Assembly (NCBI GenBank): GCA_015065935.1
Contig: SVPI01000005.1
Coordinates: 1-64,000, forward strand
Reading direction: 5' to 3'
From: Oscillospiraceae bacterium
Lineage (GTDB): Bacteria > Bacillota > Clostridia > Oscillospirales > Acutalibacteraceae
Length of the DNA stretch: 64,000 bases
Every line of letters starts with the position of its first letter. Within the stretch, counting starts at the first letter, position 1. The position numbers were made by a program, and so were the translations under genes. The notes beneath the pieces were generated by a model. That model searched no databases. It saw only the letters and a program-made list of their open reading frames with translations, and had not been told where the DNA came from. This document shows positions 23,316 to 43,651 of the stretch, piece after piece.

Positions 23316-23391
23316 GATCCATTAGCTCAGTCGGCAGAGCACTTGACTTTTAATCAAGGTGTCCGGAGTTCGAATCTCCGATGGATCACCA
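23316..23391 (+). tRNA. tRNA-Lys (anticodon UUU)
   Basis: A complete 76-nt cloverleaf. The 7-bp acceptor stem is GATCCAT with ATGGATC, the D-arm starts TAGCTCAG, the anticodon stem CTTGA/TCAAG encloses CTTTTAA with anticodon TTT, and the T-arm is CCGGAGTTCGAATCTCCG. Discriminator A and a genomically encoded CCA end the gene at 23391. Confidence 0.97.
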
Positions 23392-23394
23392 AGA

Positions 23395-23423
23395 AAAAGA
23401 ACGCTGTTAAGCGTTCTTTTTTA
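23395..23423 (+). terminator. Intrinsic terminator directly behind tRNA-Lys
   Basis: A perfect 11-bp stem (23395-23405 with 23410-23420), loop GTTA, then T residues. It starts 4 nt after the tRNA CCA end. A near-identical copy occurs at 23592-23618. Confidence 0.88.
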
Positions 23424-23591
23424 TTTTTATAAAAAAAGAGATTTGAACTCCGGTGGAGTTCGTCGAAGCAGCCCTGAATGCGCGACAGCATTTAGGGACT
23501 GTGAAGTCGCGAGCAGTGAAGATTTTTCGCAACCATTCGGAATGGTCGAAAAATCAAACAGCGCAGGGTATCTCCGATGGATCACCAAAGA

Positions 23592-23618
23592 AAAAGAACG
23601 CTTTAAGCGTTCTTTTTT
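23592..23618 (+). terminator. Second copy of the tRNA-Lys terminator
   Basis: An 11-bp stem (23592-23602 with 23606-23616) followed by T residues. It differs from the first copy only in the loop. Confidence 0.8.
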
Positions 23619-23667
23619 ATATACAAAAAAATGCACAAAATGTTAAGCAAAAAACGTTTTTTTGATG

Positions 23668-29365: not shown

Positions 29366-29383
29366 ATTTTGGAGGTGGAAAAC

Positions 29384-30271
29384 TTGAAGGATTACATTTT
29401 GGAATTTGAGTCTTTTCTTAAGTATGAAAAGGCTTCCTCTAATAATACCTTACAATCTTATTTACGCGATGTAACTCAGTTTTCTGCCTACTGTAAGCTT
29501 AATTCCATTGAAGATGTTTCCAAAGTTACCTCTAAAAAACTTAATGAATACTTTGATTATCTACATTCAACCGGTCGTAGCGATGCAACCGTTTCGAGAA
29601 ATGTAGCATCGCTCAGATGCTATTATAAATTCCTCGTAAAAAAGGAAATTTGTTCAGTTAACCCTGTTAGTGATGTTAAGCAAAAAGCAGCCACCAAGAA
29701 AATTCCTGAAATTTTAACCAATAAAGAGGTTCTGCTTTTGCTTGAACAGCCCAAGGGTTCCGACTATAAATCCATTAGAGATAAGGCAATGCTTGAGTTG
29801 CTTTATGCTACAGGCATTAAGGTTTCGGAGCTTATTGACCTTAATTTAACAGATATTAACCGTCAAATTGGCGTTTTACACCTTCACACAGGAAAGAGCG
29901 AGAGAGTAATTCCTATTTACCCCGAAGCACTTAGAGTTTTAAATCGTTACATTAATGAGGCTAGAAGTGTTATTATCTCGGAAAACAGCGAGGACAAGCT
30001 GTTTACAAATATGAACGGCTCACCAATGTCAAGACAGGGCTTTTGGAAAATAATTAAGCATTATGCAGAACTTGCTAAAATTGATAAAGACATAACCCCA
30101 CACACCTTGCGCCATTCTTTTGCGGCCCATTTACTTGAAAATGGTGCGGAACTTAAAGACATTAAAGAAATGCTCGGTCATTCGGATATATCTTCAACAC
30201 AAATCTACGTGCAAATGATGAAGCAAAAATATGCTCAGGCATATAAGCGTTTTCATCCTATGGCAAGATAA
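29384..30271 (+). CDS. xerD: Tyrosine recombinase XerD-like, with Lys at the first catalytic Arg
   Basis: Protein of 295 residues with an N-terminal SAM-like core-binding domain and a C-terminal catalytic domain. Xer recombinases resolve chromosome dimers at dif. The catalytic Lys (TGKSERVIP), HTLRHSF (His, Arg), LGHSDISST (His) and the nucleophile Tyr (TQIYVQM) are present. The first Arg, expected in ATGxRVSEL, is replaced by Lys at residue 146 (ATGIKVSEL; codon AAG, 29819-29821). The TTG at 29384 has GGAGG 8 nt upstream; a TTG at 29369 would lie before that RBS. Length and position after spoIIM favour a housekeeping Xer protein, not a phage integrase. Confidence 0.85.
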   Translation: MKDYILEFESFLKYEKASSNNTLQSYLRDVTQFSAYCKLNSIEDVSKVTSKKLNEYFDYLHSTGRSDATVSRNVASLRCYYKFLVKKEICSVNPVSDVKQKAATKKIPEILTNKEVLLLLEQPKGSDYKSIRDKAMLELLYATGIKVSELIDLNLTDINRQIGVLHLHTGKSERVIPIYPEALRVLNRYINEARSVIISENSEDKLFTNMNGSPMSRQGFWKIIKHYAELAKIDKDITPHTLRHSFAAHLLENGAELKDIKEMLGHSDISSTQIYVQMMKQKYAQAYKRFHPMAR

Positions 30272-42586: not shown

Positions 42587-42612
42587 GGAGGAAAATTCCT
42601 CCTTATTTTTTT
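42579..42612. terminator. Bidirectional terminator, uvrC and recombinase gene
   Basis: A perfect stem of about 13 bp containing AAGGAGG and CCTCCTT arms, with A and T runs at the two sides. Confidence 0.88.
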
Positions 42613-43651
42613 ATTTATCTCGAAGTTTTACAACATTTCGAGAATTTATGAGACTTTCTTCATCGGTTGTAACATAGTGATTTTTGGTTGTATTAACGCT
42701 TGTGTGACCGAGTGCGCGTGCTACAAGATAAATATCACCGGTGTTTTGATAAAGCTCGGTACCGTAGGTTTTACGCAGTTTGTGCGGTGTAATAATCTTT
42801 GAAACACCAATGGCTTTGGCGTATTTTTTAATCATATCTTCAATTGACTGAACGCAAATTCTGGTTTTTTGAATTGATAAAAACAGTGCATCTGCCGATT
42901 CATCGTTTGCAGGGATAATTTCTTTTCGCTGGAGCAAATAGCGCTGTAAAGCCTCAATAACTTCATCCCCCATAGCGATATATTGATATTTGCCGCCTTT
43001 GCGATAAACGCTTATAAGGCAACGGTCGAAATCTAAATCTCGAATATTTAAACCAACACACTCTGAAACACGAATTCCGGTGCCTAAAAGCAGGGTTGCA
43101 ATGGCTAAATCGCGAATTTTTGTAGTTTCAAGATACTTTTGTTGGCGCGGAGTAAAGGCTGAACAGCCAAATTCAATAGCATTTAAAAAACGTGCGACCT
43201 CATCGGGAGATAAACGAATAATACGATTATCCTTATCAGGTTTTGGCTTTTTAACCTTATCACAGGGGTTTCCAACAATTAAATCGTTGCGATAAAGATA
43301 ATCAAAAAATGAGCTTAAAGCTGAGAGTTTTCGGGCAATTCCTGAACGGTGGTTCATATTTTCTTTATCATACTGCAGATAATCGGTGTATTCTTCAATA
43401 TCACGTGCTGTGACCGATTGCATTACCTCAATTGGAATTTCTTTTAAAGATTTATCCAAGAGATTTGGAATGGCTGCCTTGAGCCACTCAAAAAAGCGCC
43501 TAAGGTCGTAAGCATAGGAAAGGCGAGTTCTTGTGGTTGTATCGGTTTTTCTGGAAATAAAATAGTCACCAACATAGATAGGTAGCTCAGATAAGATTTC
43601 CTTAATTTTGAGCATATTATTTCTGTCAAGCTCGTCTTGATATGAGTTCAT
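42611..43651 (-). CDS. Second tyrosine recombinase (XerC/integrase type)
   Basis: Protein of 346 residues. A core-binding domain comes first (LSYAYDLRRFFEWLKAA, HRSGIARKLSALSSFFDYLYR). The catalytic domain carries the full set: TGIRVSECVGL (Arg), RKGGKYQ (Lys), HKLRKTYGTEL (His, Arg), LGHTSVNTT (His) and NHYV (Tyr). It is longer than XerC/D (about 300) mostly at the N-terminus. No attachment site, excisionase or phage gene is near, and flanks are core genes, so a housekeeping role is as likely as a mobile origin. It is read from a consensus promoter about 265 nt upstream. Confidence 0.85.
   Translation of the reverse strand: MNSYQDELDRNNMLKIKEILSELPIYVGDYFISRKTDTTTRTRLSYAYDLRRFFEWLKAAIPNLLDKSLKEIPIEVMQSVTARDIEEYTDYLQYDKENMNHRSGIARKLSALSSFFDYLYRNDLIVGNPCDKVKKPKPDKDNRIIRLSPDEVARFLNAIEFGCSAFTPRQQKYLETTKIRDLAIATLLLGTGIRVSECVGLNIRDLDFDRCLISVYRKGGKYQYIAMGDEVIEALQRYLLQRKEIIPANDESADALFLSIQKTRICVQSIEDMIKKYAKAIGVSKIITPHKLRKTYGTELYQNTGDIYLVARALGHTSVNTTKNHYVTTDEESLINSRNVVKLRDK

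Follow-up and report, generated by a model that had tools for sequence, protein, structure and literature searches.

An intact tRNA-Lys gene is followed, in the 64,000-nt stretch of an Oscillospiraceae genome analyzed here (the window), by a strongly structured sequence and then by a second copy of its own 3' end, which raises the question of what kind of element lies behind this tRNA and how it came to be there. The host gene, tRNA-Lys(TTT), occupies positions 23316-23391 (all features of the locus are on the + strand) and was identified with ARAGORN and Rfam (RF00005, 71.4 bits). Its last 18 nt, ATCTCCGATGGATCACCA (23374-23391), and an intrinsic terminator recognized from its sequence (23397-23422) belong to a direct repeat, D1 (23374-23435 versus 23570-23631; 62 nt, 79%, ungapped, spacing 196), in which the 18 tRNA nucleotides are identical. 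The second ATCTCCGATGGATCACCA, including CCA, lies at 23570-23587 and a second intrinsic terminator at 23594-23618, also within D1, so that the duplication of tRNA end and terminator at a distance of 196 bp, described in a sequence-only reading of the window, is borne out. No gene is present between the repeats.

The interior of the unit also agrees with that reading, which had listed an inverted T-arm, GGAGTTCG, about 107 nt with hairpins, and then the exact 3' end with its terminator. The inverted copy of the T-arm (23438-23453; 15 of 16 nt against 23363-23378, inverted repeat I2), a feature of the family as well, contains the left strands of two helices, P0 (23438-23442) and P1 (23445-23451). 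P1 is completed by a copy of GGAGTTCG (23455-23462), which comprises the 5' strand of the T-stem and one T-loop half, and P0 by the start of the second 3' end (23570-23574). The structured, conserved core that is the hallmark of the family (23463-23569, 107 nt; 131.3 bits with our covariance model R1) includes hairpins P2 (23468-23502) and P3 (23521-23555, with an asymmetric bulge). The core is placed exactly between the copied T-loop halves (GGAGTTCG^core^ATCTCC) and its end abuts ATCTCCGATGGATCACCA, in line with the earlier proposal of a short non-coding element that interrupts the T-loop within a 3' half of a tRNA. As RNA, the fold of a 157-nt stretch surpassed those of 199 of 200 dinucleotide-shuffled sequences (z -3.3); folded as DNA, a 141-nt stretch beat 200 of 200 shuffles on either strand (z -3.9 and -4.2). 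The predicted DNA fold of the window copy comprises P1, P2 and P3 without P0, and that of locus L058 takes the four-helix form.

The insertion point would be the T-loop of tRNA-Lys (GGAGTTCG^AATCTCC, about 23365-23379). Judging from D1 and from the unit boundaries in genomes G000 and G001 and in other copies, the first ATCTCCGATGGATCACCA (23374-23391) was probably supplied by the inserted unit, and the second (23570-23587) is probably the original 3' end, now displaced, since other copies show two 3' ends with different terminators. No empty site was found for the window's own copy, and the sister locus in G001 is rearranged. At the matching tRNA-Lys locus of G001 (L012, G001:C123) the core is missing and an AbiU2-like HEPN gene begins directly behind GGAGTTCG.

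The element is not solitary. In the source genome a second copy lies behind tRNA-Arg, and relaxed searches found two more behind tRNA-Gln and tRNA-Glu. Model R1, built from seven copies, gave 60 matches in 20 of 250 genomes of the same family and 36 matches in 11 of 394 genomes of the order, which added three further families; a pattern scan of named genomes returned 42 MAG stretches, all of them from bacteria not in culture, which with few exceptions are labelled Clostridia, Oscillospiraceae or Ruminococcaceae, and many from ruminant and deer gut. The total of distinct copies found with the covariance model is 112 (uncultured gut Clostridia/Oscillospiraceae and related families), 105 of which, with E below 1e-10, form the aligned set. 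Viral contigs contained no match to the element pattern and phage and plasmid records none by blastn of single copies, and a phage or plasmid origin was rejected. In Rfam, tRNA alone exceeded the gathering threshold (weak sub-threshold sRNA matches reflect the tRNA and the terminators), and nothing recognizable as the present family was found in the freely accessible journal articles covered. The T-loop insertion units are a real family, apparently previously undescribed, and we regard the evidence for their anatomy as strong.

Wherever a tRNA was found near a copy, it was on the same strand as the element. An intact same-strand tRNA precedes 78 of the 112 copies (55 of them at 47-80 nt, the distance at which first copies lie) and directly follows another 6, and no tRNA was called near the remaining 28, several of which are at contig ends. 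The host genes comprise 16 isoacceptors and tRNA-Pro(TGG), i.e., at least 17 kinds of tRNA, and, for one copy (L092), tmRNA.

The arms of the element are tailored to the tRNA at which it resides. The tail behind the core agrees with its own tRNA in 8.56 of 12 nt on average (permutation mean 5.52, maximum 6.17; 5000 permutations), and in ten copies it is identical over 18 of 18 nt. The T-stem 5' strand agrees in 2.89 of 5 nt (permutation maximum 2.72), and the longest match between the left inverted copy and the 3' end of its own tRNA is 8.85 (permutation maximum 6.73). The cores group by genome (74 label changes versus 90 when shuffled, minimum 86) and less by tRNA (64 versus 70, minimum 64). 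In one genome the cores at tmRNA, Ser-GCT and Ser-TGA are nearly identical and their arms differ, a pattern that could have come about by gene conversion between cores or by an insertion that copies its target.

The boundaries of whole units are visible where related genomes differ. A sister class with the same layout and another core (L057:1249-1416 in G001, L029, L039 and L251) contains the inverted T-arm GGGGATTCGAACC and, in several members, a hairpin like AACAGTCCGGTGGACTGTT, and is polymorphic between G000 and G001: a 167-bp unit is present at TTCG^AATCCC of tRNA-Glu in G001 and absent from G000, with 104 of the next 113 bases past the insertion identical. At tRNA-Gln of G075 a unit of the mirror (5') type, with the 5' half of the tRNA copied in 56 of 56 nt, is absent in the congener G185; G075 also has one tRNA-Arg flanked by both types of unit, and in G185 a core at tRNA-Arg is reduced to its last bases. 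The terminator behind the displaced 3' end is unlike that of the intact tRNA in several cases (e.g., Glu L084 and Tyr L030) and alike in others; where the two differ, it seems more likely that the unit arrived with a 3' end and terminator of its own than that a local duplication took place. Among the copies examined we saw no case of a core inserted by itself into an otherwise unduplicated tRNA gene.

On balance, the element is probably a non-autonomous, site-specific insertion unit (a cassette) that targets the T-loop of tRNA and tmRNA genes and carries a folded recombination end, working like attC/attI. The common unit would consist of a replacement tRNA 3' end with its terminator, optional cargo, the inverted T-arm and the core of about 107 nt; its insertion at TTCG^AATCC would restore the tRNA and shift the old 3' end downstream, and the rarer mirror form would supply the 5' half. 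One strand may fold in such a way that the inverted T-arm pairs with both split T-arm halves and so rebuilds a duplex resembling a T-arm, from which the core protrudes at the point of crossover, and a site-specific recombinase would then join the folded site to an intact T-arm, as attC is joined to attI in integrons.

The substitutions in the core bear on such folding. Standard pairs make up 95.8% of paired cells in the 105 copies, with two-sided changes in 37 of 38 pairs (14 of 14 in P2 and 13 of 13 in P3), and the covariation score was 0.486, compared to 0.164 for shuffled and at most 0.083 for slid alignments (this alignment was fitted to the model). An independent MAFFT/RNAalifold run, in which 48 copies were aligned by sequence only and the structure was predicted afresh, gave double changes in 28 of 31 pairs. 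The P2 loop (CGCGAYAG in most copies) reads CGCGATAG or CGCGACAG in most of the copies; helix P0 is short and partly missing among copies (mean longest stem 4.4 versus 3.9 permuted). Related copies and conserved hairpins, whose joint absence would have spoken against the sequence-only reading, are both abundant.

Single-strand folding would be the reason for this covariation, and the pair statistics bear on the kind of strand. G:U accounts for 1.6% of core pairs (one G-U-rich pair left out; 2.7% with it) versus 7.5% in the stems of the tRNAs at the same loci, as would be expected of DNA. G:T exceeds A:C in the core helices by 49 to 14 (p=1e-5, in counts that ignore kinship), which suggests that it is the tRNA-sense strand that folds. 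These statistics are an argument and not proof, and we take them to reflect either folding of the tRNA-sense strand as DNA or an RNA of an unusual kind.

The latter possibility leads to the likeliest alternative, in which the element encodes a functional structured RNA with a regulatory or tRNA-interacting role, is placed behind tRNAs as its gene, and has arms that must pair with the tRNA next to it. The strong covariation, the conserved loop and linkers and the excess of G:T over A:C on the tRNA strand suit it, as do left flanks that can complement the tRNA 3' end (in L002, 15 of 15 nt for tRNA-Arg). Yet a terminator stands between the tRNA promoter and the 3'-type copies, G:U pairs are rare relative to tRNAs, the distribution is patchy (20 of the 250 family genomes), the units carry cargo and duplicated tRNA ends, and no Rfam family matched; we consider this reading unlikely, although the element may have an RNA role. 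The three origins that the sequence-only reading had offered fare accordingly: an integration trace and a tRNA-targeting repeat family are supported by the large family at tRNA and tmRNA T-loops and by the precise insertion differences among related species, whereas a structured RNA co-transcribed with the tRNA is not favored, given the intervening terminator, the few G:U pairs and the cassette-like arms and cargo.

A second alternative is that the copies are ordinary att scars left by conventional integrative elements that target tRNAs (ICEs, prophages), the core being a decaying att arm region. Integration into a tRNA normally duplicates the T-loop/3' end (PMC9897764). The units share with such elements and with satellites the insertion in the T-loop and a tRNA 3' end that is duplicated and restored, with a direct repeat of this end flanking the insert (18 nt in the window, and the ten copies with 18 of 18 nt), and upstream of one element, in G005, lie a Fic/Phd pair and an integrase that is a putative member of the unit. 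However, no cognate integrase was found in the element, the window unit having no gene between its repeats, and most units are gene-free and only about 190 bp long. Moreover, they share one covarying core, with arms fitted to at least 17 different tRNAs, they include mirror units that restore the 5' half, and nothing like them was present in viral contigs or phage records; compensatory changes in stems would be unexpected for an att arm bound as double strand or for a decaying scar. We regard this explanation as still less likely than a structured RNA.

Quite improbable, it seems, is a third alternative, insertion of nothing but the core into T-arms by a non-autonomous transposon of REP/IS200-like or retro type. 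The hairpin-rich, multi-copy, strand-oriented elements with their near-identical cores and different arms within one genome would fit it, but a core-only insertion does not account for a tRNA half that is duplicated together with a terminator of its own, Y1 transposase (PF01797) had no match in G000, G001, G306, G334 and G370, and reverse transcriptase (PF00078) had none in 9 of 12 element genomes. The same searches led us to reject a Y1/REP transposase as the mover and a retro-type mechanism, which the similarity of the left arm to a primer-binding site had brought to mind. Small mobile hairpin repeats such as REP/RAYT are likewise short, non-coding, folded and multi-copy; unlike them, the T-loop units are fixed to tRNA T-loops in one orientation, with no consistent Y1 transposase in the element genomes.

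For a cassette with a folded recombination end, the closest comparison is the integron, in which recombination of attC via a folded single strand is established (PMC2668188). Integron cassettes, too, accumulate in a single orientation behind a fixed site, their ends are imperfect hairpins with structure conserved more than sequence, and their cargo includes defense genes and small genes of unknown function. Arrays of the T-loop units grow in the same way, with second copies about 140-260 nt behind the tRNA and further ones, with cargo, at 326-1888 nt, all on the same strand. In contrast to integrons, the docking site is a tRNA or tmRNA T-loop and not attI, a genome has many such tRNA loci, one half of a tRNA is restored by the unit, and a 107-nt multi-helix core with T-arm-tailored arms takes the place of R/L boxes with GTTRRRY; the alignments show no conserved GTTRRRY box where the element ends, at (A)ATCC of the T-stem, but T-arm halves. 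A bare bulge would not require a P2 loop and linkers as conserved as these, which would equally fit an RNA or a site of protein binding. By analogy, we propose an integron-like mechanism with moderate confidence; membership in integrons is not claimed, given the rarity of G:U pairs and the negative result for an integron integrase.

The integron integrase model (TIGR02249) scored above its cut-off in none of 28 element genomes, some of them incomplete, and no recombinase linked to the element was found. In G185 (98% complete, with 7 copies of the element), G179 and G224, all 96-99% complete, the only tyrosine recombinases found were an XerD-like protein (about 300 aa) and an XerC-like protein (about 335-365 aa; about 350 aa in G185); their counterparts in the window are at 29369-30271 and at 42611-43651 (minus strand), respectively. 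These proteins may act on the element, or the enzyme may come from outside. Tentatively, the units may represent an undescribed form of gene-cassette capture, in which T-loops of tRNA and tmRNA dock many small arrays per genome and a non-IntI enzyme, possibly the host Xer, recombines a folded single-strand site that rebuilds the T-arm of the host tRNA, and thereby takes up and shuffles defense genes.

In bacteria, DNA integrates at few sites as commonly as at tRNA genes, and the integron serves as the textbook example of recombination via a folded DNA strand. The present, widespread family appears to combine both, with a tRNA-fitted site and defense cargo, and if this is true, gut Clostridia could collect genes at tRNA loci without elements the size of a phage or ICE. 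One example of cargo is a 5-kb restriction-modification/AIPR cassette at tRNA-Pro of G185, whose C5 DNA methylase and AIPR protein are encoded between tRNA-Pro and the element; it is bounded by CTGTCACCTCGACCA repeats, the element tail repeating the CTGTCACCTCGACCA of tRNA-Pro. In L091, an S23-like protein and a T5orf172 protein upstream of the element are putative cargo.

The S23/23S-rRNA-IVS protein (PF05635) was also considered as a mobilizer. It is encoded in 18 of 20 element genomes versus 100 of 230 others (p=7e-5), but its genes are mostly elsewhere with hairpin arrays of their own, and it was rejected as the mobilizer, the link being kept as an association only. Such genes lie behind tRNAs in L245, L249, L251 and L252, after arrays of short hairpins with ATGAAG-like spacers; L062 and L069 have similar arrays behind tRNAs, with ATATCATC spacers and without a PF05635 gene. 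At the tRNA-Tyr-type loci L010, L044, L062 and L065, cargo terminates in a common hairpin, TTGGCATCTAAAnnGTTCGtAAnAGCCAA, which contains GTTCG. In L091, imperfect direct repeats with GGGGTTCGAATTTGT (1-120 and 1540-1640) flank the S23 and HTH/T5orf172 gene pair and resemble a third kind of T-arm-like cassette end. Arrays of the T-loop units can be marked in genomes with covariance model R1.
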